Assembly: GCA_003165095.1 (NCBI GenBank)
Contig: PLSH01000224.1
Coordinates: forward strand, 1 to 53,683
Direction: 5' to 3'
DNA: 53,683 nt
Source of the DNA: Acidobacteriaceae bacterium
GTDB lineage: Bacteria; Acidobacteriota; Terriglobia; Terriglobales; Acidobacteriaceae
Part shown: one piece after another, positions 2,890 through 48,293 of the stretch
Layout: each line of letters begins with the position of its first letter
Position numbering within the stretch: position 1 is the stretch's first letter
Made by a program: the position numbers and the translations under genes
Notes under the pieces: generated by a model
What the model was told of the DNA's origin: nothing
What the model saw: the letters and a program-made list of their open reading frames with translations, nothing else
The model's database searches: none

Positions 2890-2899
2890 ATTTCACCCC

Positions 2900-12221: not shown

Positions 12222-12269
12222 CCACGTCCTTTTGGCAGATTGTATCGCGGCGAATCCAGGGCGCGCAGC

Positions 12270-13174: not shown

Positions 13175-13345
13175 GTCGGCGCGGCAGTTGCGGGAATGCC
13201 CTTCGCTCTGTTGACTAACGCAAAGCAGGACAAGAAGGAAAGCGCTTCGCGGGCCGGAGAGGAAGATATGTTGCAAAGCAAAACAATGTGCGCAGCGGGA
13301 CATTGCCGGCGTAGATGCGCTTGACCGGCTCACCGCTTCCTGAAC

Positions 13346-13945: not shown

Positions 13946-13960
13946 AGAGGGAGAGAACCG

Positions 13961-14805: not shown

Positions 14806-14984
14806 TTTGGGGTGAGCAACAAAGCCGGCGGAAACCCGAGCGCGTCGCCGTCAAAGATCTCGATGGGGTGATATCAGGCAAGTTGCTATTCTGTCAGGAG
14901 TCTCTCAACCGATGTTTTTCGATGCCTCCGCACTTCCGTTGCCGATCGGTTCTCCTCGCCCGGAGGCTTCGCCGTTCAGGCGTC

Positions 14985-15024
14985 CCCGCGCAGATTTTTG
15001 TCCAAATCCAGCAATCGGGCCGGT
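14985..15024 (+). repeat. copy 2 of a diverged 40-bp direct repeat
   Basis: Partner of 13440-13479 in the same orientation. It lies in a gene-free stretch of about 460 bases (14806-15268) between the CHAT remnant and the Kelch protein. Confidence 0.5.
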
Positions 15025-33392: not shown

Positions 33393-33661
33393 GACCCGCC
33401 ATGCAAGGACTGGTTGTTCCAGGCCTCCCATCTTCGGCACTCTTGTGGCCGGGAAGACGTGTGAGTTTGGTTCGTCAATGGTTGTGAACTTCGCCGGCGT
33501 TGGGGAGGCAACATCACGGAAGTGCAAAGTAGCTTCCATCAGCGGCGATGTGAAATCATAACCATCGACAGGCGCGAGGCGTGCTGAATTCGTGTGTTCT
33601 GAATTCCTGGCAAAGGGGCTTGGCAACAGCTGTGCTCAGGCTCCTCTTTGGCGCCTCCCGG
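33393..33661. other. convergent intergenic region
   Basis: About 270 bases between two convergent genes. A minus-strand frame (33387-33626, 79 aa) contains protein-like text (SPLMEATLHFRDVAS, FPATRVPKMGG) but no start signal, no family I know, and it overlaps the metallophosphatase end. It may be a fragment of a lost gene. No terminator is evident. Confidence 0.3.
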
Positions 33662-34855
33662 CTAATCTGCGAATTCGGTGACAACGCGATCTGCCCGGAA
33701 ACGTTCCATTGCATCCATATTCAGCTCAATCCCTAAACCGGGCTTGTGCGGCAGCGCGATTTGTCCGTCTACGAGTTCGAGTTCTTCGCGGACCAGATCG
33801 CGGCGCAGGGCGGATTCGGAGAGAGCCGAGGGCAGGAATTCGATATAGGGGCAGTGCGCGTTGGCAAAACAAAGATGAGCCGATGCGGCAATCCCAATGC
33901 CTGTCTTCCAGCAATGAGGAACAACGAGGCGTCCCCGATCGGCGGCCATATCGCAAACGCGGCGCGCTTCAGTCAGGCCGCCTACGCGGCCCACATCTGG
34001 CTGAACGACGTCGACTTTGGCTCGATCGAGCAGCTCGAGGAATTCGAACCGCGAGTTCTGCAATTCTCCGGTGGCGATGCGGATGGGCGAGTGGTCATGA
34101 AGGAATGCATAGCCGTCATGATCGTCAACCTGGAGCGGCGTTTCGACAAAAAAGACATCGTAAGGCTCAAGGCGGTTGATTGTGCGCAGGGCCTCCTTGG
34201 CATTGTTCCAGCTATAGACGGCATCGACCATGAGGGTAAAGTCGGGACCGACAGCTTTGCGGCAGGCGGCTGTAAGTTCCACCACCAGGTCATCGCTGGC
34301 CTGCAGTCCCTGATGGCTGTAAGGTCCTTTTACGCCGGCTTCGATTTTGGCGGCCCGAAATCCAAGCCGCTTGGCTTCTGTGATCTTCGCGGTCAGCGAA
34401 CTGAGAAACTCCTCCGGCGTTCCGCCCACCGGCAGCAGTGAAGCATAGGCGGTGACGTGGGTCTTTCTGGCTCCGCCCATGATTTGCCAGCAGGGCAGTC
34501 CGAGGATCTTGCCGCGAAGATCCCACAACGCCATGTCGATGGCTCCAATCGCACAGATCCCCAGGCCACGGCGCCCGGTCATGATGCTGCCGACATAGAG
34601 TTTCTCCCATATGGCTTCTACGTTCAGTGGGTCCTCGCCCAACAGCATCTCTTCCAACCCGCGGCCAAGGCTGTGCGTGCCGCGCGCGTGGATCATGGCT
34701 TGCGCCACCCAGGGATTAGTATCTGTTTCGCCGATGCCGAAAAGGCCCTCGTCCGTATGGATGATGACGACAATATCGTCCTGCGCGGAAGAGCAGGCCG
34801 CTGAATCATAGTCCGGGACCAGAAGAACGTGTGTTTCCACCCTGGCGATTTTCAT
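33662..34855 (-). CDS. enolase-superfamily dehydratase/racemase (mandelate racemase/muconate lactonising type)
   Basis: 397 aa, full length. The capping domain (MKIARVETHVLLVP) and barrel are complete. Catalytic and metal residues are present: K170 in AAKIEAG (KxE form), metal ligands D211 (LMVDAVYSW), E238 (FFVETP) and E264 (ATGELQ), and H314 in VVPHCWKTG as general acid/base. Members with Lys and His on opposite sides are usually sugar-acid dehydratases or acid/amide racemases; the exact substrate cannot be deduced. Cytoplasmic. It begins 60 bases after the M24 peptidase stop and is the third gene of the solA-like/M24/enolase operon. The GntR-family operator at 37507 probably controls it. 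Confidence 0.88.
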   Translation of the reverse strand: MKIARVETHVLLVPDYDSAACSSAQDDIVVIIHTDEGLFGIGETDTNPWVAQAMIHARGTHSLGRGLEEMLLGEDPLNVEAIWEKLYVGSIMTGRRGLGICAIGAIDMALWDLRGKILGLPCWQIMGGARKTHVTAYASLLPVGGTPEEFLSSLTAKITEAKRLGFRAAKIEAGVKGPYSHQGLQASDDLVVELTAACRKAVGPDFTLMVDAVYSWNNAKEALRTINRLEPYDVFFVETPLQVDDHDGYAFLHDHSPIRIATGELQNSRFEFLELLDRAKVDVVQPDVGRVGGLTEARRVCDMAADRGRLVVPHCWKTGIGIAASAHLCFANAHCPYIEFLPSALSESALRRDLVREELELVDGQIALPHKPGLGIELNMDAMERFRADRVVTEFAD

Positions 34856-34914
34856 GTTCCTTCTCCTTTCATGCCAATCAAGCGGTCGGGGCGAACCTGC
34901 TTTTTGTGCCGTGC

Positions 34915-36030
34915 CTAAAGTGTGTGAGCAAAGCCAGTCAGAAGCTCTGCTCCCCGCGAAGTAACTGCAACGACCGATTCCAGACGTATTCCGTATTCGT
35001 CCTTGAGATAGATGCCGGGTTCGAGGGCTATGACCATGCCTTCAACAAGAACAGCCTCGTTATAAGGAACGATCCGTGGTTCTTCATGCCAGGTGACCCC
35101 GATGCCGTGACCGGAGTGATGGGGAAAGCTGGAGCCGTCATGAGTCATCGCCAGTCGCAGAAAATGGTCGAGCTCAGAGACACGCAGTCCCGGCTTTATC
35201 CTGGCAATTGCCTCATGAAGAGCCGCAAGAACGCGTTCGAAATGCGATTCCTGTTGCTTGTTTCGAGAGCCGATGGCGAACGTGTTGCACGAGTCTCCCC
35301 AGTAGCAATCATGGCGGACAATGATGTCGACGAGAACCAGGTCCTGCCTGCAGATGGTTCGCGAGGTTGGAACGCCACCCACCAAAGCGGTGCGCGGACC
35401 GGAGAGCAAATCGGCCAGGACGGGTACGCGGCATCCGGCCTCGGCTTCGATTTCCGCGTGAATCAGGCTGAACAGCTCAATCTCCTTCATCCCCTCGCGT
35501 GCGTGCTGCTTTGCAGCGCGCTGACCGCAATCGCAGAAGCGCACAGCCCGCCGGATGCGCTCGAGCTCTGAGGGTGTCTTGATGGCTCGCAGCTCGCCCA
35601 GGGCGGCAGAAACCTCAACGAAGCGCAATTGCGGAAACGACTCGGTAAGGGCGACGAGCACGGCGGCAGGCAAACAGGCGAGCTCCACACCGATGGTTGC
35701 ATGCGCACAGGAGCCGAGCTGGGTTTCTAATGCAACAATCAAGGATTGGATGCCCGGCAACGGCTCCCGATAGACGTACCCGGCAAAGCGGACTTGATTG
35801 AAAACCGAGTCCGGAGGTGCATCTTCGCCCTCGGCAAGAAACAGCACAGGCGATTGGCCATGCAGCCAGAGCAGGGCTGCAGGGCATGGCAGCCAGGGCG
35901 CCGCTCCTGACTCAATTTGAGTTTCGTAGTCCGCAAAATATGCCAGGCTCGCGGGAGAAGTGAGCAAAACGCCATCAATGGCGTTTGCGGCCAGCGCGGG
36001 TTCGAGGCGCGAAAACGGTGTCTCAGTCAT
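34915..36030 (-). CDS. M24-family metallopeptidase (Xaa-Pro peptidase-like)
   Basis: 371 aa. The N-terminal creatinase-like domain is followed by a pita-bread catalytic domain with all five metal ligands: D235 and D246 (LVDIIVRHDCYWGDSC), H308 (HHSGHGIG), E337 (ALEPGIY) and E351 (GIRLES). This makes it a dinuclear peptidase and argues against creatinase, which lacks these ligands. No signal peptide. Its start codon overlaps the stop of the sarcosine-oxidase-like gene (ATGA at 36027-36030), so translation of the two is coupled. Together they suggest release and oxidation of imino or N-substituted amino acids. Confidence 0.88.
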   Translation of the reverse strand: MTETPFSRLEPALAANAIDGVLLTSPASLAYFADYETQIESGAAPWLPCPAALLWLHGQSPVLFLAEGEDAPPDSVFNQVRFAGYVYREPLPGIQSLIVALETQLGSCAHATIGVELACLPAAVLVALTESFPQLRFVEVSAALGELRAIKTPSELERIRRAVRFCDCGQRAAKQHAREGMKEIELFSLIHAEIEAEAGCRVPVLADLLSGPRTALVGGVPTSRTICRQDLVLVDIIVRHDCYWGDSCNTFAIGSRNKQQESHFERVLAALHEAIARIKPGLRVSELDHFLRLAMTHDGSSFPHHSGHGIGVTWHEEPRIVPYNEAVLVEGMVIALEPGIYLKDEYGIRLESVVAVTSRGAELLTGFAHTL

Positions 36031-37208
36031 CGAGGCTCGCTTTCTCGCCCGGCGCCGGAGAAGAAACGTTGGACGGAAAGGAAATCAATGGGCAATGACG
36101 TCGTGCCGTTGAGTACGAGATCGGCGAGAGCTGTGCCGATCAAAGGCGCGAACTTGAAGCCGTGGCCAGAGAAGCCTGCGCCAAAGACAACATTCCTGAA
36201 GACCGGGTGACGATCGACGATGAAGTGTTCATCGGGCGTGAGGGTGTAGAGGCAGGTCATTGAGCGGTGCAGGCGGCCCGCGGATCCGGCATACGGACCG
36301 GCGAGGCCAGGCATGTACTTCGAGGCGGTCTTGCGAATTGGATCGAGATCGCTTGCGTCTGGCGGCGCGGCGGGGCTATCGGCGTCGGGCAGGTCGATTC
36401 CGCCCATGTGCTCCGCCATCTTGACGCCGAATCCGGGCACGCTGGGAAATCCATAAAGGAAATTCTCGGGAAAAGTGAAGACGGGTACACGATCGGCGGC
36501 GAAGAGCTCGGGGACGAGCGGATCGAACCATACGAGTACCTTGCGCCGGACCGTGAGCGGCAAACCAAGATCGCGCAGCAGCTTTCCGGCCCATGCGCCG
36601 GCAGTGATCACCAGGCTTCCGGCTGTGACTGTCTCGTTTTGCAGTTCGACTCGAACGTGGCCGCCGGAGGCGCTCCAGCCTATGACCGGCTGGTCGAGAA
36701 CGCACTCCGCGCCCAGGGCGGCGGCGTGCGCGTGGCTGCTGCGGATGGAGGCGTCCACATCGATCCATCCTGCCTGCGGGTCGAAGATCCCGGCATAGTT
36801 CTCTGGAATCTGAAAAGCGGGATAACGCCGGTAGACTTCGCTTGCTGAAAGTGTCTCCACCTGCAAACGGTTGATGGATGCGCTGTCGATAACAGCCTTG
36901 AGAAATGCTTCACCAGGAGGACCCATAGAGAGCATCCCGGTGCGGTGCAGCAGTTTTGCGCCGAATTCTCCGGCTGCCTGGTCCCACAACTCGCCGGCGC
37001 GCTGCGCAAGCTTCACATAACCTGTCCCTTCGGGATAGGCAATGCGGTAGATGCGCGTGCCGCCGGAGTGGCTGCCATGGTGGTGCGGCGGCGTGAAGCG
37101 ATCGAATCCGATCACTGAGAGTCCACGGCGAGCCAGTTCGACGGCGGCGAAGCTGCCCATCGTTCCAAGCCCGATGACGGCCGCGTCGTAATGGGATCGT
37201 CTTGTCAT
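36027..37208 (-). CDS. sarcosine oxidase/N-methyltryptophan oxidase-like flavoenzyme
   Basis: 393 aa, the normal length. The FAD-binding GLGTMGSFAAVELARRG is at residues 13-29, the substrate-side GGTRIYRIAYPEG follows, and MTCLYTLTPDEHFIVD contains C319, aligned with the cysteine that covalently holds FAD in monomeric sarcosine oxidase and MTOX. The family oxidises secondary amines such as N-methyl amino acids, and in one branch fructosyl amino acids, giving an imine, then an aldehyde and H2O2. First gene of the operon with the M24 peptidase and enolase-type enzyme. RidA, which clears reactive imines, is divergent from it across a shared control region, a logical pairing. Confidence 0.88.
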   Translation of the reverse strand: MTRRSHYDAAVIGLGTMGSFAAVELARRGLSVIGFDRFTPPHHHGSHSGGTRIYRIAYPEGTGYVKLAQRAGELWDQAAGEFGAKLLHRTGMLSMGPPGEAFLKAVIDSASINRLQVETLSASEVYRRYPAFQIPENYAGIFDPQAGWIDVDASIRSSHAHAAALGAECVLDQPVIGWSASGGHVRVELQNETVTAGSLVITAGAWAGKLLRDLGLPLTVRRKVLVWFDPLVPELFAADRVPVFTFPENFLYGFPSVPGFGVKMAEHMGGIDLPDADSPAAPPDASDLDPIRKTASKYMPGLAGPYAGSAGRLHRSMTCLYTLTPDEHFIVDRHPVFRNVVFGAGFSGHGFKFAPLIGTALADLVLNGTTSLPIDFLSVQRFFSGAGRESEPR

Positions 37209-37496
37209 GTCAGCGTGTTCTGCTCCGTAAGAAGCTTTTCAGAGGTTCAACTACTGTGGGAACTCAAGGCACACACACCGGGCAATAGAATGATGAGGAC
37301 CGCAATGGCAAAAGCCGGCATGGGTACCGGCGCAAAGGGAAGGGTGCCGGCTCGGGAGCCCTGCGCAGCCCCGATCTGAGTGGAGAGTGGTCTCATGCTT
37401 CCTGTTCCCGCGCGAAACTTGACACCGGACCTGACGCACCATTCCTGCCGGAAAAGGACGATTCTTCGGGCCAGACGGATATCGATTTGTTTCGAT

Positions 37497-37527
37497 ATTA
37501 TAGCACATCATACCTGTCTGCTATGAT
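37497..37527 (-). promoter_or_regulatory. GntR-type operator A within promoter of the sarcosine-oxidase operon
   Basis: On the minus strand ACAGGTATGATGTGCTATAAT: the operator core GGTATGAT lies in the spacer upstream of a perfect TATAAT (plus-strand 37497-37502). The site also has 6-bp perfect arms ATCATA (37507-37512) and TATGAT (37522-37527). It shares its core with sites at 38489, 40273 and 47860. It sits in the 410-base region between sarcosine oxidase and RidA, which is otherwise empty; control of both directions is likely. No good -35 is seen. Confidence 0.6.
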
Positions 37528-37619
37528 CGAAAATTGAGGCCGAAAAGGCCCTCGGCCAGCCGCTTGAGGAACGAGCCTTCTTGCGCCGTCAGTCGACTTT
37601 ATTTTCGGAGGAAAATGTC

Positions 37620-38012
37620 GTGATTGAACGACTCCAGGTTCCGAATGCACCCAGGCCCGCAGGTCCCTATTCGACCGCGGTACGTGCAGGAGAGTTTCTC
37701 TTTATCTCAGGACAAGGTCCCGTGGATCCAGTCTCGGGCCAAATGCAGGCACAGGCGAGTATCGACGAGCAAACCCGGCTTGTGCTCAACAATGTGCGAA
37801 CCATCTTGAATGGCTGTGGGGCCGATCTGGAGCATGTCGTGAAATGTTCGGTTTTCCTATTAGATCCAAAGGACTTCAGCGCGATGAACGCGGTTTATGC
37901 CGAGGTTTTCGGAGGAAACAAACCAGCACGCACCACGGTGGCAACGGGGATGGTGGCCGAGGGTATGAGGATCGAGATCGATTGCGTGGCCTACGTGCCG
38001 CGTCCGTCCTAG
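37620..38012 (+). CDS. RidA/YjgF-family enamine/imine deaminase
   Basis: 130 aa from the GTG at 37620, with GGAGG 8 bases upstream. The longer frame (TTG at 37581) adds only non-conserved residues. Signature parts: RPAGPYSTAVRAGEFLFISGQ at the start, and NKPARTTVATG carrying the conserved Arg that holds the substrate carboxylate. The C-terminus is RIEIDCVAYVP. RidA proteins hydrolyse reactive 2-aminoacrylate and other enamine/imine intermediates in the cytoplasm. Divergent from the sarcosine-oxidase-like operon, whose product generates imines; a shared GntR-type operator lies between. Its stop overlaps by 4 bases the stop of the convergent truncated gene. Confidence 0.9.
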   Translation: MIERLQVPNAPRPAGPYSTAVRAGEFLFISGQGPVDPVSGQMQAQASIDEQTRLVLNNVRTILNGCGADLEHVVKCSVFLLDPKDFSAMNAVYAEVFGGNKPARTTVATGMVAEGMRIEIDCVAYVPRPS

Positions 38013-38479
38013 AAGCCGGCCATGCCTTGGGCGCCTGGATGAGGAACCCAATCGAGAGAGAGCACACTCTCCCATCGAAGAATGTTGCTCTCGCCATGAA
38101 ATGTCATTCCGGCGGCTGCCTCGGCTACCGAAGGACTGCCCCAATATGGGAAGCAGAGATCATGACCCAGGAGCCCGCTGATCAACCGCGCTTCTGCGTC
38201 CGCGCCGTAGATTGGCCCGTGAATCGCCGGGGCAAACTGGTCGGAATCAATCGTGGTGCGGTTTTGAATCCCGAGCGGATTGAGATTGCAGGCAAGTTTT
38301 GAGGCAATTTCGGCGCCGTGGCCTCCGCACTCCAGAATGATCACTCGAGTCAGTTCAGACTCGATCTGCCAGGCCTTGCGGCCGTGATAGGTGATCGTCG
38401 GAACTCCGGAGCCGGGAACAGCCGGACGAAAAGCTGGACTCATTTCAGCATTGCGCCTGAATCCCCGGAGGGATAGCAT
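38009..38479 (-). pseudogene. aldose-epimerase-like protein, C-terminally truncated
   Basis: The frame opens sensibly at TITYHGRKAWQIESELTRVIILECGGHGAEIAS and continues DQFAPAIHGPIYGADAEARLISGLLGHDLCFPYWGSPSVAEA to MTFHGESNILRWE. This is the first third of an aldose-1-epimerase-fold (galactose mutarotase-like) protein of about 350 aa. It ends after only 156 aa with non-conserved text (SVLSLDWVPHPGAQG), and its stop lies inside the RidA gene end. The loss point is near 38060. The start may be the ATG at 38443. It was presumably a sugar epimerase/mutarotase serving this catabolic block. Confidence 0.6.
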
Positions 38480-38488
38480 TCGCGCACA

Positions 38489-38505
38489 GGATACCTGTAT
38501 GATAA
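38489..38505 (+). promoter_or_regulatory. GntR-type operator B upstream of the SDR gene
   Basis: GGATACCTGTATGATAA: near-palindromic GATAC-CT-GTATGA. The TATGAT inside it (38499-38504) can serve as the -10 of a plus-strand promoter for the SDR gene at 38591, so a bound repressor would block it. It lies also upstream of the truncated epimerase gene on the other strand. Same core as sites A, C and D. Confidence 0.55.
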
Positions 38506-38590
38506 CCGGGTTAGACGCCGAGAGCCTTCCTCAGCAGGGAGGGTTTGTGCGTGTCTGACCATGCTTTATTCCGGAGATAAGAGATAGCAG

Positions 38591-39385
38591 ATGGAACGTT
38601 CTGAGAATAGTGGCCGGTTGATCGTCATCACCGGCGGGGGAAGCGGTATTGGCAAAGCCACGGGTCTTCTTTTGGCGGCGCGTGGCGATACGATCGCGAT
38701 CCTGGACAAGAATGGCGAAAGGGCAAATGAGGTGGCTCAAGAAGCTTTGGAGCGGGGAGGGTGCGGAGCCATCGCTTTGGCCTGCGACGTGTCGGACGAG
38801 CGGCAAGTGACGGAGTCATTCGCGCGCATTCACGAGCGCTTCGGAGCCCCGTACGGGATCTTCGCCAATGCCGGCATCGACATGGGCGGACTGATCCACG
38901 AGATGCCGATCGAGCGTTGGAAGTTCATCGTCGACACCAACCTTACCGGCGTTTTCCTGACTTGCAAGCATGGTCTTCAGCAGATGCTGGATGCGCACAT
39001 TGCCGGCTCGATTGTCTGTACGTCGTCGCCGGCCGGATACGTGGCCCAGGCGGCGGGCCGGGCAGGCGCTTACAGCGCTACCAAGGGCGCCATTTCTTCT
39101 CTGGTGCGCTGCATGGCGGTCGATTACGCGCCCTTCGGCATCCGGGTGAATGCCGTGGTTCCTGGGGCAACGGAAACCGGATTGTGCTGGAATAACGTTC
39201 CTGCCGATGAAGTGGAAAAGATGCGGGCGCAACTCTCGCGAGAGATTCCCCTGGGCCGTCTGGCACAGCCGGAAGATCAGTCCCCGCTGGTGGCGTGGCT
39301 TTTGTCTGACGAGGCCGGCTATGTAACGGGCGCTCACTTTGTTTGCGATGGTGGAATCCTGGCCAAGTCTTCCATCAGCGTTTAG
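38591..39385 (+). CDS. short-chain dehydrogenase/reductase (SDR)
   Basis: 264 aa, complete classical SDR. The cofactor loop TGGGSGIG (14-21) is followed by an Asp at the end of the second strand (ILDK), favouring NAD(H). NAG is at 93-95. The catalytic S145/S146 and Y161-x3-K165 (YSATK) are present, and the C-terminal GAHFVCDGG is typical. Cytoplasmic oxidation of an alcohol to a ketone, probably a sugar or sugar-acid hydroxyl given the GntR regulator and enolase-type dehydratase near by. The promoter overlaps operator B. It converges on the GntR gene with 79 bases between stops. Confidence 0.9.
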   Translation: MERSENSGRLIVITGGGSGIGKATGLLLAARGDTIAILDKNGERANEVAQEALERGGCGAIALACDVSDERQVTESFARIHERFGAPYGIFANAGIDMGGLIHEMPIERWKFIVDTNLTGVFLTCKHGLQQMLDAHIAGSIVCTSSPAGYVAQAAGRAGAYSATKGAISSLVRCMAVDYAPFGIRVNAVVPGATETGLCWNNVPADEVEKMRAQLSREIPLGRLAQPEDQSPLVAWLLSDEAGYVTGAHFVCDGGILAKSSISV

Positions 39386-39464
39386 ACCGGGCGTGCGGAA
39401 CAGGGAATCGAATCGCGCGGTTGGAAGCTGTTCAATTGGCGCCGGGAAAGCGAGTGGTTGACGG

Positions 39465-40244
39465 TCAGGCGCTCAAGACGGTTGCTTCGAGTGCTGCGTC
39501 TTCAGCTTTCTCCGTGCGCTCCAAAGCTCCTACGATCAAACTCTCGGAGTAGGAGATGTGGTCGATCATGGCCTGGCGTGACTTTTCCGGGTCGCGCTGC
39601 TTGATGACGTCGAGCAGATCCCGATGCGAGGTCAATTCGTAGTTCTTGAAGGCAGCCAGGTCTTCCACGCTGGTTTCAAGCAGCACGCCGGCCCTGGCCA
39701 TCAGGCGAGTGAACGAGCGCACCAGCTTTGCCAGCACCGGGTTGTGGCTCGCCTCCGCAAGAGCGCAGTGAAATTCGGTTGCAATGGCGGCTATGCTCTC
39801 CTGCTTCTGGATGGAGCGGTCAATCGCGATCAGGACATCTTCCATCTTCCAGAAATCTTCAGGGACGGCGCGTTCGGTTGCCAGCGCCGCGATGCTCGAC
39901 TCCACCAGCTTGCGGGCCTCGATCACATCCATCAAGGCTTCCTTTTCAAGCAGGAGTGCGAGCACATCCGCGTGGACGATATACTCCGTCGAAACGGTTT
40001 TAACGAAGCAACCCGAGCCTGGCTTGATTTCAATCAGGTTCAGAACGGCCATCATTTGAAGAGCTTCACGAATTCCGGTGCGGCTTACGCCGAAGTGATC
40101 GACGAGCTCATTCTGCGAGGGTAGCTTGTCGCCCGGCTTGAAGGTACCGTCCTTGAGCCACCCGATGAGCTGATCGAGCGTCTGAGTCGACAGGCTTTCA
40201 CGGGTCGCGCCAATATAAGTAGTGCGTGACTGTTCGATTGCCAC
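39465..40244 (-). CDS. FCD-type GntR-family transcription regulator
   Basis: 259 aa from the GTG at 40244, chosen because GAGG stands 8 bases before it; the open frame continues upstream through the promoter. The N-terminal winged helix reads LDQLIGWLKDGTFKPGDKLPSQNELVDHFGVSRTGIREALQMMAVLNLIEIKPGSGCFV. The C-terminal FCD effector domain has the usual metal/ligand residues (EARKLVESSIAALATERA, FHCALAEASHNPVLAKLV, SHRDLLDVIKQRDPEKSRQAMIDHI). Members mostly repress sugar-acid or organic-acid catabolism and release DNA when the acid binds. Operator C lies in its own promoter and three similar sites control neighbours, so it is the likely master of this block. Confidence 0.92.
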   Translation of the reverse strand: MAIEQSRTTYIGATRESLSTQTLDQLIGWLKDGTFKPGDKLPSQNELVDHFGVSRTGIREALQMMAVLNLIEIKPGSGCFVKTVSTEYIVHADVLALLLEKEALMDVIEARKLVESSIAALATERAVPEDFWKMEDVLIAIDRSIQKQESIAAIATEFHCALAEASHNPVLAKLVRSFTRLMARAGVLLETSVEDLAAFKNYELTSHRDLLDVIKQRDPEKSRQAMIDHISYSESLIVGALERTEKAEDAALEATVLSA

Positions 40245-40269
40245 GGGATATCCTCGTATAACTCCAAAC

Positions 40270-40288
40270 ATATCATACCGTACATACC
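40270..40288 (-). promoter_or_regulatory. GntR-type operator C in the regulator's own promoter
   Basis: On the minus strand GTATGTACGGTATGATATG. TATGAT inside it is a good -10 (5 of 6) with a weak -35, TTTCCG, 17 bases upstream. The start codon of the regulator follows about 25-30 bases later. The GGTATGAT core is shared with the other three sites, and a second GTATG repeat precedes it. Suggests autoregulation. Confidence 0.55.
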
Positions 40289-40411
40289 GCTCATCGGAAA
40301 GTGCCTGCGGAAAGTACCTGCTACCGGGCCGTTGCCTGACTGGGTTTGCGGGTTTCACGAGCAAAAAACGCTGAGGTAACCGCGCCCGCTTTTAGCTGTC
40401 CTTTGCTTCGA

Positions 40412-40885
40412 TCAGCTCAAAATCGCTTCTCGGCCCTCCGCCTTCGCTCGCCGCGCTTCAGTTGCGGTCGGCGGCAAAGACAGAAGCACGATGGCAATGA
40501 TGCCGCAGGCGACTCCAACCGACTGGAGCGAGGTGATGTGCTCGTGCAATACCAGGGGCGCAAGCAGTACGACCGGCAGCGGATAGAGGGCGGTAAACAC
40601 AGTAACGATAGAGGCAGATCCGCCCAGCCGCATAGCCTCGAAGATTCCCCAGGAACCGAGGTTGCTCAACAGCCCGCTCAACAGGCCGTAGAGGATAGAC
40701 CGGTGCGTGTAGATCGATAGCGACTCATGCGGCAGAACCAGTGGTTGAGTGAGAAATGTCCCGAGGACCAGGAGCACCATCAGGGATTCAGCAGAGATGC
40801 GATTGGTGGACATCTTCTGGAATATCCCCGTGACACCCCAGGTGACCAGCACGCCGAACGCGAACCAAAGCCAGGAAATATGCAG
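40412..40885 (-). CDS. half-size EamA/DMT-type membrane transporter, second of a pair
   Basis: About 157 aa with five hydrophobic segments, one EamA domain (most DMT permeases have two). The first membrane segment ISWLWFAFGVLVTWGVTGIF begins before the GTG at 40852, so translation must start earlier. No ATG, GTG or TTG is available, but CTG at 40885 has AAAGGAG 7 bases upstream, immediately after the TGA of the preceding gene. C-terminal signature: GGSASIVTVFTALYPLPVVLLAPLVLHEHIT. Inner-membrane export or import of a small metabolite. It probably dimerises with the product of the adjacent gene. The GntR regulator follows on the same strand after about 168 bases. Confidence 0.75.
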   Translation of the reverse strand: MHISWLWFAFGVLVTWGVTGIFQKMSTNRISAESLMVLLVLGTFLTQPLVLPHESLSIYTHRSILYGLLSGLLSNLGSWGIFEAMRLGGSASIVTVFTALYPLPVVLLAPLVLHEHITSLQSVGVACGIIAIVLLSLPPTATEARRAKAEGREAILS

Positions 40886-40898
40886 AAGAGTGCTCCTT

Positions 40899-41438
40899 TC
40901 AAATCGAGAATATGACGAATGCAGCTACCGCGAAAAAGAGCCCGGCTAACTGACCGCGCGTCAGTCTTTCGTGCAGAAAAATCACCGCAAGAAGGACCGT
41001 AACAAGTGGATAGAGAGAGCTGATAACCGTAACTACTGAAGTGTTTGCCGAACTGCGGTAAGCCGCGAAGAGAGCCAGTTGTCCAAGGCCGGAGAGCACT
41101 CCCACGATCAGGCCATAGGTGATTCCGGAGAAGCTTTTTTCCATACGGAAGCGGCGAAAGGCCAAAAACACAATGCCCACGGGCAAGCCGCCCCAATTGA
41201 ACAGGTACTGCATGGTTTTGGGCGGAATTTCGTTGCCGCCGATCTTGGAAAAGAAGATCCATGGCACGTAACAGACAATGCAGAAGATACAGCACCAGAA
41301 CCAGCGAGCCGTAAGTGCTTTGGGGATTCTCAGTGTTTTCTCCTCGCAGTCAAGCTCTGCCTTTTTTGAACAAACTAGCCTGCTGAACCGGGGGCCCGGC
41401 GCTGGCTTACCGGACTGGACTTGCCGTGTAGTTATCAT
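40899..41438 (-). CDS. half-size EamA/DMT-type membrane transporter, first of a pair
   Basis: Open from the ATG at 41438 (179 aa), but the first 35 residues are not membrane-like. An inner CTG at 41333 with GAGGAG 6 bases before it gives LRIPKALTARWFWCCIF, a more natural start of about 144 aa. Five hydrophobic segments follow, with the EamA end motif NTSVVTVISSLYPLVTVLLAVIFLHERLTRGQLAGL. A single-domain protein, like its neighbour, so the functional unit is probably a heterodimer, comparable to paired SMR proteins. The end is directly coupled to the next gene: the Shine-Dalgarno sequence overlaps its TGA region. Likely carries the pathway substrate or an intermediate. Confidence 0.78.
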   Translation of the reverse strand: MITTRQVQSGKPAPGPRFSRLVCSKKAELDCEEKTLRIPKALTARWFWCCIFCIVCYVPWIFFSKIGGNEIPPKTMQYLFNWGGLPVGIVFLAFRRFRMEKSFSGITYGLIVGVLSGLGQLALFAAYRSSANTSVVTVISSLYPLVTVLLAVIFLHERLTRGQLAGLFFAVAAFVIFSI

Positions 41439-41480
41439 CCGCCGAATGCGTGGTGGCGCGTGCGCCGGCGGAGGATACGG

Positions 41481-44072
41481 TCAGGGCAGCAATCTTACGG
41501 CGGCAAAACCATTGGCCGCAAGTGGAAGATGAATTTCGTGGTGCTCAATCGGCAGCGGCTCAAGATCTCGCTCCAGCAGATCGGTGCGTATCGCGCGGCT
41601 ATACCCGGCAACGAAGATGGTCAGCGGTCCCGTCTTGCCGGCGACCTCCCACAAGCGAAGCAGGTTGCCGGCGCCATCGGCCGTCTTTAGCGTGGTTGCA
41701 ATGGCTCGCGAGGAGTCTACCCGGACGGTGGGTTGCGACAACGTGGCCCGGGGCACTGTCCCAATATGCGCCAGAATCGGATTGGTAACGTTGCGGCTCC
41801 AGGGAAATATCTCCGCGCCGTCATAATCCGAATGGTGCGCGCGCAGGGAGTAACGCAACCGGAAATCGGTAGCGCCGTGCTGGTCGTGAGTCGCTTCCTT
41901 GTAGTTCTGATCGTTGCCGACGGCTTCAAAGGTAATTGGCCCCAGGTCCTGACGAATCACAAACGCATCCAATGGCGCGATCGTGACACCGCCTTGCGGA
42001 GAAGAGACATCGACGAAATTCTGAATGGCAAACTGTTTTGGGTTCGCGCCGGGCAACAGGTCGCCATCGGGCTGGGGAAAAGGCCTTTCGACGGCGCCGG
42101 TGGTCTCGATTCGCTCGACTGCGCCTTCGCGCGCAACCGGAAACGACTGAGTCAGGCGCTGCTCCTGCGTGGTGACCGGCTTGTGAATTGCGATGTCCAG
42201 GTCAACTCGGTCAAGATCCGCATAGACCGTTATCAGGCTGGTGATGGCAATCCCTTCAATTGTGCCCGAAACTTTAAGCCGCGCGAGAACCGGGCCCTGG
42301 GCAACGACTTCGGAGTGCACATCGGAAAGCAGGTGCTCATGCCCATCGAAGAATATTGACTGCCCAATGGTTTTTTGCCCCGGCATGCGCAACTCAGTGT
42401 TTGTGGATTTATCCACCAGGCTGCTGATGCCGCCGGTCTGCGGATCAATTTGCAAACGGTAATAGGGGCTCTCCAATTCGAGCGGGGCGGCGCGGAGTTT
42501 CGCTTGGCTCGGTTGTGAAGCCGAACTGGATGTGAGGTTGAGTGTTGAAAAAGAAAATCCAGGCATTTTGGGAGACACGAAATAGAGTGCGCGCTTTCCC
42601 TCTTCATCCACGATCTGCGAAGCCCGGCCGCGCACGCTGTTTACACCATCCGGAACGGGAACCGAAACCAGGTCGGCGCGCTCGATGCTGAGGCTGTTGA
42701 ACAGAGTCACCGCGGAATTCCCCGGCGTGAGCCCCGCGGCGCTCCAGCCCTGCTGCAGCAACTGGTCATCGAGTTCGACGAGCTTCAGGCCCCAGTGCTG
42801 GCGAAGATCTGCATTGACAAGCCGGTTTGCATCGCTGGCGCCGTTCCAGGCATGGTCGGCCAGCATGGCCAGGTTCCACTCCGCGCTGCGATGGGTTTCC
42901 CGCGTGGTTTCGGCAATGGAGGGATTGGCGCGGGCGGACACAGCCAGGAGCGCCTCACTGGCCAGGAATGAGCGCTCTCCCGAACGCATGCGCATGGCAT
43001 GATCGGCCAGCGTGACGGGCCAGTTATCCCAGGATTGGCCGAAGTCTCCGCTTAGAGTAGGCATGAAATGCTGCTGATCTTCCACTTTGTCCACTGCCTC
43101 AACAAATTGTGGCAGGGTTGCGTTGATGAGCTTTGCATGGGGCTTGGGACGCGCGTTGTATTGAATGATGCCGTCGGCGAATTTGGGCGTGAACTGGTCG
43201 ACTTTAGGCCCGTTGTCACCGTGGGTACCGCTGGCGAGTATGACGTGTAAAGGATAGGCAGTTCCGAATTGCTGGTAGTGCGGCAGCAATTCCTGCTGGA
43301 TCAAGTCAGGGTTCTTGAGCAGATCGCGTCCCTGGACGTAACCCCATTTTTCTGATGACCATTTGTCCATCAGCACCCGGATCTGGCTCCCGTCGGCCCC
43401 CTTCCAAACAAAAAATGGCGGATTCTCCAGCTTTGAAAAGGTCGAATCGTAATCGAGAAAGGGAATGATGAGCCATTTGAATCCACTCGCAGACAGAATT
43501 GGCTCGGCGCCCCAGGGCAATGCCGGCTCTTCAATGTGCTCAGCCGTGCGGATCGAAATACCCCATTGTTCCTCCATGCGGCGGGCCGGGTAAAGATCTC
43601 GCAGTTCGCTCTCTACGCTCTGAAAACCCCATAGATTGTTATTCAGATAGGCCCCGACCGAAATGCGCCCTTCGCGGATGCGGCGAAGAAATTCATCCTT
43701 CCGCTCGGGATAATACTCGAGGAAGACCGTGCCTTCCTGCGTAATCGAAAGATTGTAGCGATCGCGATTCTCAGGGCTCTCCTTGTCGGTCCGGTTCATC
43801 TCATCGAGATGAGAGAGGATCACGTCCGCATAGGCTTTGCGCGTCTGCTTTTCATCCCACCCCCAGGTGTAGTCCGAACAGGAATCGTTGGTGATGTAAA
43901 CCGTCCAGGCGGAAGGATCGGAAACGGCCTGTGCGAAGGCGCGCTGAGGAACCGCAATGGCGAGCGCAAAGCAGAAAAGGAAGCCCGGGATCAACCAGGC
44001 ACATTGCCGGGTAGCTTTTGGAGCCGGCGTATCCCGGCGCGTCCAGATCAGCTCGCGATTGGTTTGTAACAT
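41481..44072 (-). CDS. secreted GH38-like glycosidase, second in the window
   Basis: 863 aa with AAGGAG 7 bases before the ATG. The N-terminal membrane/signal segment (AWLIPGFLFCFALAIAVPQRAFAQ) is preceded by a positively charged stretch. The catalytic part begins YITNDSCSDYTWGWDEKQTRKAY, a variant of the GH38 metal motif in which the usual HxHxD is replaced by an Asp-rich form. The barrel core (LPWGAEPILSASGFKWLIIPFLDYDS) and the beta-rich C-terminal domains (SPYYRLQIDPQTGGISSLVDK) are those of GH38 enzymes. Periplasmic or outer-membrane glycan cleavage; specificity unknown and probably not a plain mannosidase. It follows the TonB receptor on the same strand after a hairpin and precedes the EamA pair. 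Confidence 0.78.
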   Translation of the reverse strand: MLQTNRELIWTRRDTPAPKATRQCAWLIPGFLFCFALAIAVPQRAFAQAVSDPSAWTVYITNDSCSDYTWGWDEKQTRKAYADVILSHLDEMNRTDKESPENRDRYNLSITQEGTVFLEYYPERKDEFLRRIREGRISVGAYLNNNLWGFQSVESELRDLYPARRMEEQWGISIRTAEHIEEPALPWGAEPILSASGFKWLIIPFLDYDSTFSKLENPPFFVWKGADGSQIRVLMDKWSSEKWGYVQGRDLLKNPDLIQQELLPHYQQFGTAYPLHVILASGTHGDNGPKVDQFTPKFADGIIQYNARPKPHAKLINATLPQFVEAVDKVEDQQHFMPTLSGDFGQSWDNWPVTLADHAMRMRSGERSFLASEALLAVSARANPSIAETTRETHRSAEWNLAMLADHAWNGASDANRLVNADLRQHWGLKLVELDDQLLQQGWSAAGLTPGNSAVTLFNSLSIERADLVSVPVPDGVNSVRGRASQIVDEEGKRALYFVSPKMPGFSFSTLNLTSSSASQPSQAKLRAAPLELESPYYRLQIDPQTGGISSLVDKSTNTELRMPGQKTIGQSIFFDGHEHLLSDVHSEVVAQGPVLARLKVSGTIEGIAITSLITVYADLDRVDLDIAIHKPVTTQEQRLTQSFPVAREGAVERIETTGAVERPFPQPDGDLLPGANPKQFAIQNFVDVSSPQGGVTIAPLDAFVIRQDLGPITFEAVGNDQNYKEATHDQHGATDFRLRYSLRAHHSDYDGAEIFPWSRNVTNPILAHIGTVPRATLSQPTVRVDSSRAIATTLKTADGAGNLLRLWEVAGKTGPLTIFVAGYSRAIRTDLLERDLEPLPIEHHEIHLPLAANGFAAVRLLP

Positions 44073-44168
44073 GTAAGACTCCTTCAGATCCCATCTTCGC
44101 CGGATGTTGCTTCAATCCGTGAGTACCGGGCAGTCGATGCCTGAAAAACAGCAGCCAGCCAAAATGAG

Positions 44169-44196
44169 GCGGCTGCTCACAAACTGAGCAAGCCGC
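44169..44196 (-). terminator. intrinsic terminator of the second TonB receptor
   Basis: On the minus strand GCGGCTTGCTC pairs with GAGCAGCCGC (one bulged base) around a 7-base loop and is followed by CATTTT, about 45 bases after the receptor stop. A modest Rho-independent terminator between the receptor and the GH38-like gene. Confidence 0.5.
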
Positions 44197-44240
44197 TTCA
44201 GGCCGCGATTGTGTGCAACTTCAACAACTGCGAAGCGCAC

Positions 44241-47200
44241 TTAGAACAGGAGTTTCAACGCCACCTGCATAATGCGCGGGTCGCGCGCGGATGTGACATA
44301 CCCGAATCCGCCCTGCCCCGAATTGTCGAAGTTACCCGAAGGATTGTTGAACTGGGCGTGATTGAAAATGTTGAACGCTTCTGCGCGGAACTGAATCTTG
44401 GTCGACTCCCAGATGTTGGTCGTCTTCAGCAGCGCCATGTCTGTGTTCAGAATGCCGGGTCCGGTGAAGAATCGGCGCGACACATTTCCAATCTGGCCCA
44501 TTGTCTCGGCGACAAAATAGTTGGGATTGAAATAAGGGTTGTTGAGGTTGCGGGGATTGCGGTCCACATACAGCTTGGCGCCATTGTTGGCCGCGCTGGG
44601 CGTATCGATCGGCCCGCCAAATGTTCCACTGAGCGAGTTATCGTCGCTTTCAGAGAGCTGGATTGGCTCGCCACTGGCGAAGGTCGAGATGCCTGAGATT
44701 GCCCAACCATTCGCAAGGTAACTTACGAAATCTCCGTTTCTGGTAAAGCGGTCGAAGGGCAACTGAAACGTATAGCTGACGGTAAGATCCTGGGGAAGAT
44801 CGAAGATCGACAGTCCTCGGCTCTTGGCCGGATCGTAGTTATCCACCGGGTCGGCCATGCCTGATCCGTTGTCGATAGATTTGGAGTATGTGTAAGCGAC
44901 AAGAATACTGGTGTACTTGTCGGTGTGCTTCAGGCCTGCCTGCAGGGAGTTGTAGCTGGAACTGGCAATGGTCTGAGTGAAGGGATTGCTGCCAAAGTCG
45001 TTTCCGAAGAGAGGACGGGTGCCGTTGACGACTGTTCCGTTCGCGAGGGTGTAGACGTTCTGTTCACCGAAGGGGCCGCAGACCGGTGAGCCGGGAGCCA
45101 GGTTGGCCGGGTTGCTCAACTGCAGACAGAGACCCGGATCTCCGGGGTTCGATTCAACAAAAGCGAGCATCTTCCGGCCAACGGTTCCCACGTAGCTCAC
45201 GCTCAACACCGTCCCCGCTCCCAACTGCCGCTCGACTGACAGTTCGAAATCCTGCATGTAGGGGAGCTTGTTTTTCGGATTGATGTAGTTGCCGCCGGTA
45301 AGCGGGATAACCTGCGCCCAGTTGAAACTGTTATCGGGATTGCTGGGAGACACGTTGGTGGGTGGAAAGCTAAAAGGAAACTTGATGCCTTCAAAGTGGC
45401 CGGTCGACCGATCGATGTAGGGCGAGCCCAACACCGGAGGCGTTGGCGACTGATAATACAGCCCGTAGGGAGCCGACCCGGTGGCGTAGAAATATCCCAC
45501 GTCCTCAATCGACGTGTAGAAGAGCCCATAGCCGGCACGAATGCTGGTTTGCCCCGCTCCCCCCAGAATCTTTCCAAGCAGTCCTTCCGATTCATTGGGC
45601 GTGAATGCCACTCCGAACCGGGGAGCGAAGTTGTGGTAGAGGATCGGCGACAGGGTCCTGGGCACGCCGGGGTCACCTGGGACCACGAGTCCCATGGGCG
45701 CTCCGGGAAATACCTTCGACTGTTCACCGGGTATGAGCGTCTCCAGCTTGTTTTGGGTGTCGAACCACGGTGTGCTCACTTCCCAGCGAAGACCGTAGTT
45801 CAAGGTGACGGTTGGCGTCGCGCGCCAACTGTCCTGCCCGTAGACGCCGTAGTATTTGCCGCGCGAATCCAGCACCTGGTAGCTGGCCTGGGTGAGCTGG
45901 GCGGGAGCGCCAATGATAAAGTCGGCGAAATCAAGCCCGGTTTCCTCACCGCTGAAGTTGAATTGTCCGTTGGCTGCGGGATTCAGGCGGACATTGATTT
46001 GGTCGTAGTGGAAGTTTCCGCCGAACTGAAGATTGTGGGTGCCGATGATCTTGGTGAGGTTGTCAACGACCTGGGCCGTGTTGTCGTACTGGTTCCTGCC
46101 GCTGGGCGGTAATCCAAAACTGTAATTGTTGAAGCCCATCGACGGCACCCCTTGCAGAGCGGGGTTCACGGGTCCGATGCCCCCCGTGGCGTTCCACGGC
46201 GTGTTGAAGCCCAGCGAAGCAAGGGTCACGCCCAGGCCTCCGACGGGGGTGCCGGACTCTGCGGAATTACGCAGATAAACCAGGCGGAAATCGTTGACCG
46301 TGGTGTTGTTCAAGGTGCTAGTGAGTCCCAGGTTCGCCACCTGATTCCGCGCCTTGTTCAATGCATTGAAGCCGGGAATATTGTCTGAGTAATACGGATT
46401 ATTCGACGACGGCTGGTCGAAGAAGTAGTAACCGAACAGGCCTCCTAAGTGGGTCTTGGTATCGACGCGGATCGCAGTCTTGTTTTCGGTCAGGGTCTGA
46501 TTGTATGCCGAAGTCTGATAGTACGACTGCCCCGGCACATTCGATGTGGGAATGTATTTGAGTGTGGCCACGGCCACCGGCGACCAGGCGCTGGTTGGAA
46601 TGACCGCATTGGGAAAGACGCATTGGGCGGTGGTGGTGCAACCCGGCGTGTAGTAGGCCTCGCCCGAAGTCACCGGATAATTTAATTCCTGAGACAGGAT
46701 GTTGGCCCAGTATGCGCCGTTCACGCCCGACCCTCCGTTGGCCGGGTCGGATGATGCAAAGGCCGCCGCCTGATCGATCAAGTTGCCGGTGCGGTCGTCG
46801 TTGGACGGGACCGGGAAGTATTGCGCCGCGCCTATGATCTGGCGCGTTCCCTCGAAATCGCCAAACCAGAAAATCTTGTTCCTTCTGATTGGTCCGCCCA
46901 CGGTTCCGCCAAACTGGTTCTGAATGAAGACGCCGCGGTCCGCGGAAAAGAAGTTCTTCGCGTCGAGATCGGTATTGCGCAGAAAGTCGAACAGATCGCC
47001 ATGGTACTCGTTGGTTCCGGACTTGGTGACAACGTTGACCTGGCCGCCGCTGTAGTTTCCATATTCCGCATTGAAGTTGTTGGTGATGATGCGGAATTCG
47101 GCGATCGAATCGAGATTGGGCACAATGCCGGGAGCATTCTGCATCTTCTCCTCAGCGTCCGCTCCGTTCACCATGAACCCATTCGAATTGGGCCGGCCGC

Positions 47201-47762
47201 CGTTCATCGATTGAACTCCCTCCCCGCCGCCGGTGGTGGAATTTCCCTGGTAGGGATTCACGCCGGGTTGCAGAGTGAGCAAATCAAGATAGGAGCGGCC
47301 ATTGAGAGGAGCAGACGTGATCTGCTGGCTTTCAATCACTTCACCCATCTGAGTGCTCTGCGTCTCAATCCTCAGATCTTCGCTTTTGACCGTGACCGTG
47401 TCGGTGACCGCGCCGAGTTGCAGCTTGATGTCGATGCGGATCGCGGAGTTGGCGTCGATCCTGATGCTCTTCTCGACAAAATCGCGGAAACCGGGATGTT
47501 GGACGGTTAGATCGTATGTGCCGACTGCGAGGCTAGGAAAGCTGTAAAAGCCCTTATCGTCAGACACCGCGGCGGTCTGCAATCCGGTGGCTTGCTCCGT
47601 GATAGTGACCGTTACTCCCGGCACGACAGCACCACTCTGATCCACGATCAGGCCTGAAATCATACCGGTAATGCCCGCCCATGCAACTGTCGATCCCAGG
47701 ATGGCTACTGCGACCGCGCTAGCTGCCCGGATGAGCCTTTTACACCCAATTGAACGCGTCAT
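44241..47762 (-). CDS. TonB-dependent receptor with carboxypeptidase-regulatory-like N-domain (Oar type), second
   Basis: 1173 aa from the ATG at 47762 (start of MTRSIGCKRLIRAASAVAVA, a good signal peptide ending at VAWA); the upstream open frame crosses the promoter and is not used. The carboxypeptidase-regulatory-like domain is near residues 30-120 (GMISGLIVDQSGAVVPGVTV, GFYSFPSLAVGTYDLTVQHPGF). The plug follows (SAPLNGRSYLDLLTLQPGVNP, GGQVNVVTKSGTNEYHGDLFDFLR), then a large barrel ending MQVALKLLF. It imports the starting ligand of this block across the outer membrane. A strong promoter with an embedded GntR-type operator lies about 100 bases upstream, tying it to the regulator at 39465. 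Confidence 0.93.
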   Translation of the reverse strand: MTRSIGCKRLIRAASAVAVAILGSTVAWAGITGMISGLIVDQSGAVVPGVTVTITEQATGLQTAAVSDDKGFYSFPSLAVGTYDLTVQHPGFRDFVEKSIRIDANSAIRIDIKLQLGAVTDTVTVKSEDLRIETQSTQMGEVIESQQITSAPLNGRSYLDLLTLQPGVNPYQGNSTTGGGEGVQSMNGGRPNSNGFMVNGADAEEKMQNAPGIVPNLDSIAEFRIITNNFNAEYGNYSGGQVNVVTKSGTNEYHGDLFDFLRNTDLDAKNFFSADRGVFIQNQFGGTVGGPIRRNKIFWFGDFEGTRQIIGAAQYFPVPSNDDRTGNLIDQAAAFASSDPANGGSGVNGAYWANILSQELNYPVTSGEAYYTPGCTTTAQCVFPNAVIPTSAWSPVAVATLKYIPTSNVPGQSYYQTSAYNQTLTENKTAIRVDTKTHLGGLFGYYFFDQPSSNNPYYSDNIPGFNALNKARNQVANLGLTSTLNNTTVNDFRLVYLRNSAESGTPVGGLGVTLASLGFNTPWNATGGIGPVNPALQGVPSMGFNNYSFGLPPSGRNQYDNTAQVVDNLTKIIGTHNLQFGGNFHYDQINVRLNPAANGQFNFSGEETGLDFADFIIGAPAQLTQASYQVLDSRGKYYGVYGQDSWRATPTVTLNYGLRWEVSTPWFDTQNKLETLIPGEQSKVFPGAPMGLVVPGDPGVPRTLSPILYHNFAPRFGVAFTPNESEGLLGKILGGAGQTSIRAGYGLFYTSIEDVGYFYATGSAPYGLYYQSPTPPVLGSPYIDRSTGHFEGIKFPFSFPPTNVSPSNPDNSFNWAQVIPLTGGNYINPKNKLPYMQDFELSVERQLGAGTVLSVSYVGTVGRKMLAFVESNPGDPGLCLQLSNPANLAPGSPVCGPFGEQNVYTLANGTVVNGTRPLFGNDFGSNPFTQTIASSSYNSLQAGLKHTDKYTSILVAYTYSKSIDNGSGMADPVDNYDPAKSRGLSIFDLPQDLTVSYTFQLPFDRFTRNGDFVSYLANGWAISGISTFASGEPIQLSESDDNSLSGTFGGPIDTPSAANNGAKLYVDRNPRNLNNPYFNPNYFVAETMGQIGNVSRRFFTGPGILNTDMALLKTTNIWESTKIQFRAEAFNIFNHAQFNNPSGNFDNSGQGGFGYVTSARDPRIMQVALKLLF

Positions 47763-47853
47763 ATACGAAATCCTCCCTGAAGTTTTTCCACAAACCCGGT
47801 CAAAATGGTTCACCCACTTCAATCCGCAAGTTGTTGATCGAACATTGCTGCAC

Positions 47854-47881
47854 AGCATATCATACCGGTACGCTATGTCAA
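47854..47881 (-). promoter_or_regulatory. promoter of TonB receptor with GntR-type operator D in the spacer
   Basis: On the minus strand TTGACA (plus 47876-47881), a 16-base spacer, then TATGCT (47854-47859). The spacer contains TACCGGTATGA, the clearest copy of the operator (centre TACCGGTA is palindromic). Start codon 92 bases downstream. A repressor here would occlude RNA polymerase directly. The rest of the 600-base gap (47763-48362) holds no convincing gene. Confidence 0.7.
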
Positions 47882-48293
47882 GTTGGCCGCGGTTACGGAA
47901 CTCATCGGAAGGGATTCAAAGCCAGGTTCTGGGGTCCGCCGCATAACTCTCTGTGCTGAGGGAAAAACCTGTGCTGCCGTGCTTGGCAAACGGCAACACC
48001 ATACGCAGCCGAAACCGGCCTGGGTGTTTCTGACCTTCCCCCTGGATGGCGGCAGGATGTGCCCGATTTGCCTCGAAGTTCTTGGCAATGAAAGGATGAG
48101 CTAGGGCCAGGGACAACTCGTCTTCAAATCCAAAAAAGACGGAAGCCGTTACCAGTTGTGGCTTGCCCGGAACCGGCCTCTTCGACGCCATGTTGCAACT
48201 TCATCCCCTGAGACAAACCCAACGTTCTATCCCTCATGCGAGGTATTCTGCCAAAAAACTCACCTTCTCTTGGTTACTTTCTCCTGTTATAAG

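Follow-up and report, generated by a model that had tools for sequence, protein, structure and literature searches.

In a 53,683-nucleotide stretch of an Acidobacteriaceae genome (contig PLSH01000224.1, here called the window), four sites that share the sequence GTATGAT are most probably operators of an FCD/GntR regulator encoded at 39465-40244 on the minus strand, a reading to which we give a probability of roughly 0.8. Judged from the sequence, this protein would be an autoregulating local repressor, and the best reading of its targets is that it is specific to one pathway and governs a TonB-type receptor together with transporters and amino-acid/sugar-acid enzymes. The regulon is new, though of a familiar type, and its operator is somewhat unusual. 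The four GTATGAT copies, located at 37507-37513(-) (A), 38497-38503(+) (B), 40272-40278(-) (C) and 47859-47865(-) (D), are at the places and on the strands given by an initial annotation of this DNA. Its proposal that they define a candidate GntR regulon is supported by the clustering of such sites around orthologous regulators, whereas binding by the regulator itself is something that we infer.

The sequences listed in that annotation are correct, but the sites extend further than it had described, A, B and D being inverted repeats of about 18-22 base pairs (bp) and C a tandem repeat. Putative operator A (37504-37525, minus strand) has the core GGTATGATG at 37506-37514(-) with an inverted mate, and reads CACATCATACC/TGTCTGCTATG on the plus strand. 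It is placed between a divergent oxidase operon (-) and the RidA gene (+), about 300 bp before the oxidase open reading frame (ORF) and 55-75 bp before that of RidA. Putative operator B (38485-38506, plus strand) has the core TGTATGATA at 38496-38504 and the inverted mate GGATACC, and is found 85 bp 5' of the ATG of a short-chain dehydrogenase (SDR). Putative operator C (40271-40288, minus strand) is a tandem GGTATGTAC/GGTATGATA with a 9-bp period, 27 bp 5' of the GTG at which the regulator gene probably starts. Putative operator D (47856-47877, minus strand) reads CATATCATACC/GGTACGCTATG on the plus strand, with the core GGTATGATA at 47858-47866(-), and lies within the TTGACA-N16-TATGCT of the receptor gene. 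The inverted mates score 6/9 (A), 6/9 (B) and 7/9 (D), and the direct repeat of C scores 6/9 at offset -9 and 4/9 at +9.

Taken by itself, the count of the motif in the window is unremarkable. GTATGAT is found 5 times against a mean of 2.62, a number reached by 17 of 100 shuffles, which favours the view that the sites are four 7-mer matches picked by eye in 53.7 kb and due to chance; GGTATGATATG with at most two mismatches is found 11 times (mean 5.95), a borderline excess that 3 of 100 shuffles reach. The significance therefore rests on related genomes. In the six regulator loci of genomes G001-G006 (L001-L006; 92,045 bases), GTATGAT occurs 15 times, compared with 4.34 ± 2.01 in 200 shuffles (maximum 11), distributed as 1, 6, 4, 2, 0 and 2 copies from L001 to L006. 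Longer forms are enriched as well, with GGTATGAT occurring 10 times versus 1.19 in shuffles and GGTATGATA 9 times versus 0.12. Neither is the motif equally frequent genome-wide, the outcome that the initial annotation had named as fatal to its proposal: of the 34 matches to GGTATGATANS in the six whole genomes (about 44 Mb; 18 for the backwards pattern), 9 fall in the 92 kb around the regulators, and 5 of the 12 matches in G002 are inside 15.4 kb around its regulator. The clustering corresponds to a binomial value of 4e-17 for a pattern that had been refined on these same loci, so that the count of the GTATGAT 7-mer is the fairer test.

A 27-column matrix trained on 16 sites outside the window gives the same picture. 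With 20.9 bits for A, 20.7 for D, 18.3 for C and 15.6 for B, it places these four above all other positions in the window. Because GTATGAT was the criterion by which the training sites had been selected, the core is circular here and the flanks alone are independent. The next places overlap the inverted arms of D (13.2) and B (11.3), followed by unrelated ones (11.0 and 10.9). The best four places of 40 block-shuffled windows average 13.1, 11.3, 10.2 and 9.7, with maxima of 18.0, 15.7, 14.3 and 12.5, and A-D exceed every shuffle rank for rank, B alone falling in the range of the best shuffled places. A matrix built only from the four window sites ranks a true site best in L001, L002, L003, L004 and L006. 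With independent loci far above their shuffles and A-D ranked first by a matrix trained elsewhere, chance is a very improbable explanation.

The anatomy of the operator was determined from an alignment of 20 sites, comprising the four of the window, 12 of the 15 from L001-L006, one from L015 (where the regulator homologue is about 40% identical) and three from G004. Not included were L003 12366, the fifth copy of the window, and L002 9921 and L004 142, each a second copy that neighbours another. Information spans ACM-GGTATGATA-xGT. The core is accompanied by a second box, either in tandem immediately downstream (+9, mean score 4.25/9) or inverted immediately upstream (-9, 4.40/9), and each of these means is reached by 0 of 2000 flank shuffles, where the null is the best of all offsets (99.9% levels 3.60 and 3.50). 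The direct offsets -11 (3.40) and +18 (3.30) also exceed the 95% level of 3.15, and +18 would equal a third box in step. For the 17 sites that had not been picked by appearance (see below), the best-of-two mean is 5.65 versus 3.05 in 20 genome matches with the same core that served as controls (one-sided P 1.8e-5), and 13 of 17 sites reach at least 5/9 versus 4 of 20 controls, with the offsets having been chosen on these sites. An odd-centred palindrome, GGTATGATACC, was rejected since positions 9 and 10 favour A/G then G, not CC. A first half-site matrix, made from the six arms of A, B and D, gave partial matches in relatives and was superseded by the 20-site alignment.

Tandem and inverted scores anticorrelate, with a Spearman coefficient of -0.66 (P 0.0016) for the 20 sites and -0.61 (P 0.009) for the 17, compared with +0.32 (P 0.16) in the 20 controls. 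Tandem boxes at 9 bp are present in C (offset -9), L002 9912, L004 124, L006 6884 and 10925, L003 4252 and L036, while the other sites are inverted. The four aligned regulator promoters (C, L002 9912, L003 9910 and L004 124) all lean towards the tandem form. A tentative interpretation, which we consider somewhat doubtful, is that one regulator recognises one 9-bp box in two promoter-specific architectures, inverted or tandem, and that two dimers would cooperate on either. If so, the anticorrelation of the scores would be its trace in the sequence.

Part of the sites are in a promoter-like position. The TTGACA-N16-TATGCT that had been reported over D is indeed present; 33500-48200 holds 4 sigma-70-like matches (5.4 on average in shuffles), of which it is the best. 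A TATAAT follows A as described, in TGCTATAAT on the minus strand and TGCTATGAT on the plus strand. As read from the sequence, B and C would each overlap a -10. A TTGACA-like box (5 or 6 of 6 positions) is found upstream in 7 of the 20 sites, two of which were picked partly for TTGACA; without the picked sites, the proportion is 5/17 versus 0/20 controls (P 0.014). Its start, counted from the core, is -15, -16 or -17 in six sites and -20 in the seventh, which places TATGAT 11-13 nucleotides from the -35 in six sites and 16 in one. At this short distance the 9-bp box usually fills the spacer and the -10 region, a classical position for a repressor.

This arrangement also bears on the possibility that the sites are a shared promoter element without any regulator, with TATGAT as the -10 hexamer and GGTATGAT recurring as a sigma-70 promoter. 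The sites do look promoter-like and contain TATGAT, which before the regulator genes could itself be the -10, and in L036 a TTGACT is located 16 nucleotides before TATGAT, a spacing that fits a -10. In six of the seven TTGACA-bearing sites, however, the 11-13 nucleotides to TATGAT are too short for it to act as such. Moreover, conservation extends to bases that are not part of a -10 (ACM before the core; G and T at +10 and +11), the motif is concentrated near the regulator in six genomes, and second boxes are weaker in the 20 controls. We therefore regard a plain promoter element as quite unlikely, and operators of the FCD/GntR regulator as the better account of the sites.

The association of the sites with the regulator gene itself is seen in most of the loci. 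A site precedes the regulator gene in the window (C), L002, L003 and L004, and a degenerate one in L001, so that the conservation anticipated in the initial annotation is found upstream of the regulator in four of the six relatives and fails in L005 and L006. For the receptor the agreement is again partial: a site precedes it in L002 (18543) and L006 (10925), two of the three loci in which a TonB-type receptor was found by tblastn, whereas the L003 receptor has, about 450 bp upstream and separated from it by a 149-residue ORF, only a weaker variant (2169, 12.2 bits). The sites might instead be those of some other transcription factor, so far unrecognised, with a regulon that overlaps the present gene cluster, given that binding of the regulator to them is a prediction and that L005 has the regulator without a site. 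Against this, the sites stand before the regulator gene in the window, L002, L003 and L004, and weakly in L001; their clustering follows the orthologue in genomes whose gene order otherwise differs; and tandem GGTAT-type boxes at 9 bp match the operator of NanR, itself an FCD/GntR protein. A second factor thus appears unlikely, if less so than the promoter element, and the regulator at 39465-40244 remains the favoured candidate.

Several observations weigh against assigning the sites to this regulator. L005, whose regulator is 55% identical and has the same Q, N, T, G and R residues, contains no GTATGAT in 20.7 kb; L006 has no site in the 200 nucleotides upstream of its regulator gene, and the site before the L001 regulator is degenerate (GATATGAT, 10.2 bits). 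With the window-only matrix, the top place in L005 is a non-site, whose 14.5 bits exceed the scores of the best sites in L006 (13.3) and L004 (10.6). The distant L064 regulator differs at the contact residues (PSVPEL, SRTVVREAL) despite a good adjoining site, and the core GGTATGATA does not fit the GT-N3-AC palindrome of the FadR subfamily, with no AC at the expected place. The aligned sites were chosen for GTATGAT, which makes the core circular; the extended patterns GGTATGATANS and ACMGGTATGATANSY were refined on some of the loci on which they were counted; and three of the six G004 matches were picked for a TTGAC box, a palindrome or a tandem box and are illustrative (the other three served as controls, and the G004 contig with the regulator is 3.5 kb long). 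The GTATGAT at L003 12366 is inside an ORF, and several aligned sites overlap longest-ORF calls (L002 4862, 4938, 9912 and 20233; L003 9910), at gene starts, gene ends or short ORFs, so that whether a site is "before" a gene depends on the true starts.

The pattern ACMGGTATGATANSY, shaped partly on G002 and G004 sites, was also counted in 257 genomes of one order, with 14 matches against 10 for the backwards control. Among the genomes that carry an orthologue at least 55% identical, G002 has 2 matches, G004 has 3 and G005 none; G532 and G615 have none, and 8 other genomes account for the remaining 9. These 9 have no TTGACA box by eye, and their inverted mates score 7/9 in L056 and 5/9 in four, scores that the ACM within ACMGGTATGATANSY itself raises.

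The regulator is a member of the GntR family, FadR/FCD subfamily, with both domains above their cut-offs (Pfam GntR PF00392, 68.4 bits for a cut-off of 27; FCD PF07729, 78.6 bits for 24.3). From 40364, where the longest ORF begins, the reading frame would span operator C; the likely start is the in-frame GTG at 40244, which is preceded by GAGGAT and gives 259 residues, and a database protein (P0001) of 259 residues is 100% identical over the full query. Orthologues were found in six assemblies labelled Acidobacteria, Acidobacteriaceae or Bryobacterales, with identities of 78, 72, 69, 64, 55 and 58% for L001-L006, and a 25% identical protein from Streptomyces (L007) was excluded from all counts. 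Of 397 genomes drawn from the order of G001, 1 carries the gene, as do 5 of 257 in that of G002 and 1 of 40 in that of G006; two of the five carriers (G532 and G615) hold homologues only 40-42% identical. In the family of G003, 2 of 200 drawn genomes carry it, which are G003 and, again, G001. This patchy distribution may be due to frequent loss or to horizontal spread.

In an alignment of 23 such proteins, the residues at or beside the DNA contacts of NanR are nearly invariant, with Q44, T56, G57 and R59 in 23/23 and N45 in 22/23, while the position of Arg55 is occupied by Met in the L003 regulator. H159, H207 and H229, at what would be the metal-site positions of the FCD domain, are also found in 23/23. 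Position 155 (A155) is Ala or Ser in all 23, whereas NanR and 6az6 have Asp there, four residues before FH; the conserved His residues and this Asp are what we take to be the FCD metal ligands.

As regards the genes in the window, the identities proposed in the initial annotation (enolase superfamily, M24, FAD oxidase, RidA, SDR, FCD/GntR and TonB-type receptor) agree with those found here. The first gene downstream of D encodes a TonB-type outer-membrane receptor (CarboxypepD_reg and OMP_b-brl_4; 44241-47762, minus strand). Its longest ORF starts at 47858, and the translation points to ATG 47762 as the probable start, so that D would be about 96 bp upstream. The fifth GTATGAT of the window, at 47659-47665(-), is inside the receptor coding sequence, where 47656-47677 carries a ATACCGGTAA dyad; it scores 10.5 bits with the outside-trained matrix and is probably due to chance, but might serve as an auxiliary site, D being about 200 bp away. 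On the same strand, the receptor is followed by a glycoside hydrolase 38-like (GH38-like) protein (41481-44072), which may be co-transcribed with it, and two further minus-strand ORFs (40412-41438) each match half of an EamA transporter in a domain search. Downstream of B is the SDR (38591-39385, plus strand), whose orthologues adjoin the regulator in L001 (77%) and L003 (67%).

Downstream of A on the plus strand is a RidA/Rid-family deaminase (37581-38012), with homologues in L001 (74%) and L003 (53%). Between the two, at 37538-37557, the minus strand has a hairpin, GGCCGAGGGCCTTTTCGGCC then TCAATTTTCG, which may be terminator-like or part of the RidA leader; 12 such sites were found versus 15.2 in shuffles. 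On the other side of A, a FAD-dependent amine oxidase of the N-methyl amino acid/sarcosine oxidase type (36027-37208, minus strand) has an orthologue in L001 that is 72.5% identical and is the second gene behind a site there. The oxidase ORF is overlapped by that of an M24 peptidase of creatinase/prolidase fold (34915-36030, minus strand; homologues 27% identical in L002, 44% in L003 and 29% in L006), presumably in the same operon. The same operon presumably includes an enolase-superfamily (MR_MLE) dehydratase-like enzyme (33662-34855, minus strand), of which the L001 orthologue is 90% identical.

The sites in relatives add likely targets to those of the initial annotation, namely EamA, an amino-acid permease and a pyridoxal-phosphate (PLP) enzyme; the two-box operator and its NanR-like tandem form also go beyond that annotation. 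Site 5082 of L001 precedes a permease-oxidase-enolase run, in which the last two genes are the orthologues of those in the window. Site 4252 of L003 is before an amino-acid permease and site 4153 is divergently before a PLP enzyme. In L006, a weaker site (9579, 12.1 bits) is before an EamA gene, and site 6884 before a DUF4832 gene. Site 4938 of L002 precedes the gene run PLP enzyme-SDR-GATase-M24-AstE, and site 4862 precedes a PSD1-type gene. A gene run of a PLP enzyme (threonine-synthase fold), an SDR, a GATase1-like protein and M24 is common to L002 (5003-9917) and L006 (14614-18814), with AstE in L002. Also in L002, two PSD1/PSCyt2/PSCyt1 proteins (2037-4829 and 12202-14991) and a DUF1501 protein (10772-12259) are encoded downstream of regulon sites. 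An ectoine pathway (DoeA M24, DoeB AstE) was considered for L002, where M24 and AstE are weak matches, with 90.5 of the 613 and 114.9 of the 402.7 bits needed; these scores are far below the cut-offs, and no such pathway is claimed.

In the distant L064, a site is located between the receptor and the regulator. On other contigs of G004, a site is before a TonB-type receptor in L065, and in L066 a 16-bp perfect palindrome precedes genes for a serine hydroxymethyltransferase-like protein and an FGGY kinase; upstream of this site are an enolase-superfamily gene and, two genes away, an EamA homologue. In L067 a gene that is 50.6% identical to the GH38-like one of the window stands about 2 kb from the site, with two opposite-strand ORFs between, so that this site has no clear target.

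We propose the following mechanism. The operator would be the 9-bp GGTATGATA with a weaker adjoining box, inverted as TATCATACC/GGTATGATA in A, B and D or in tandem as GGTATGTAC/GGTATGATA in C. By analogy with NanR, each 9-bp box would carry one regulator dimer in an asymmetric position, giving two dimers per operator; the 9-bp unit is as long as a FadR-type GGT-N3-ACC site, and a pair of boxes could accordingly hold two adjacent dimers. With the boxes lying over the -35/-10 region, the bound protein would keep RNA polymerase out, and the regulation would be repression rather than activation. A small molecule taken up by the TonB-type receptor would then release the regulator from DNA, and the enzymes suggest that this effector is probably derived from an amino acid or a sugar acid. 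Soil is rich in Acidobacteriota, and a search of open-licence papers found no description of a GntR regulon in this phylum. A text search of the literature for GGTATGATA gave nothing on bacterial gene regulation among the matches listed. Taken with its targets, the regulator-operator pair gives one testable pathway that brings together a TonB-type receptor, transporters and amino-acid/sugar-acid enzymes.

The FadR subfamily (FadR, PdhR, LldR, GlcC) has the operator consensus TKGT-N3-ACMA, or N2, a palindrome to which NanR and BioR are listed as exceptions (PMC4494728). The present regulator is of the same protein subfamily, but its box is GGT-N3-ATA and its dyad is a back-to-back ACC/GGT. An Arg position in the helix-turn-helix correlates with operator sequence in this subfamily (PMC4494728). 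By our own mapping, this would be the position of the NanR contact Arg59, which aligns with Asn45 of the window regulator. NanR of Escherichia coli is the FCD/GntR regulator of the sialic acid regulon, and three of its dimers bind three tandem GGTATA boxes, one domain of each dimer binding the box and the second the neighbouring non-consensus DNA, with at least two boxes needed for tight binding; zinc binding is also described (PMC8012715). The nanA operator of E. coli MG1655 reads GGTATA-aca-GGTATA-aa-GGTATA, with 9- and 8-bp spacing. The window regulator is not NanR itself, as it scores 119.4 bits against the curated NCBIfam cut-off of 260, is 24% identical, and has an N-terminus of about 18 residues (from the likely start) versus the 32-residue extension needed for cooperativity; no nan genes were found among the ten window proteins scanned. 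The operators differ too, the box here being GGTATGATA instead of GGTATA, and three of the four window sites being inverted instead of tandem. What the two systems have in common is an FCD/GntR protein and adjacent GGTAT-type boxes in promoters, the tandem sites here being of GGTATG type with a 9-bp period. Alongside NanR, the two-box operator provides another example of possible cooperation between FCD/GntR dimers on DNA.

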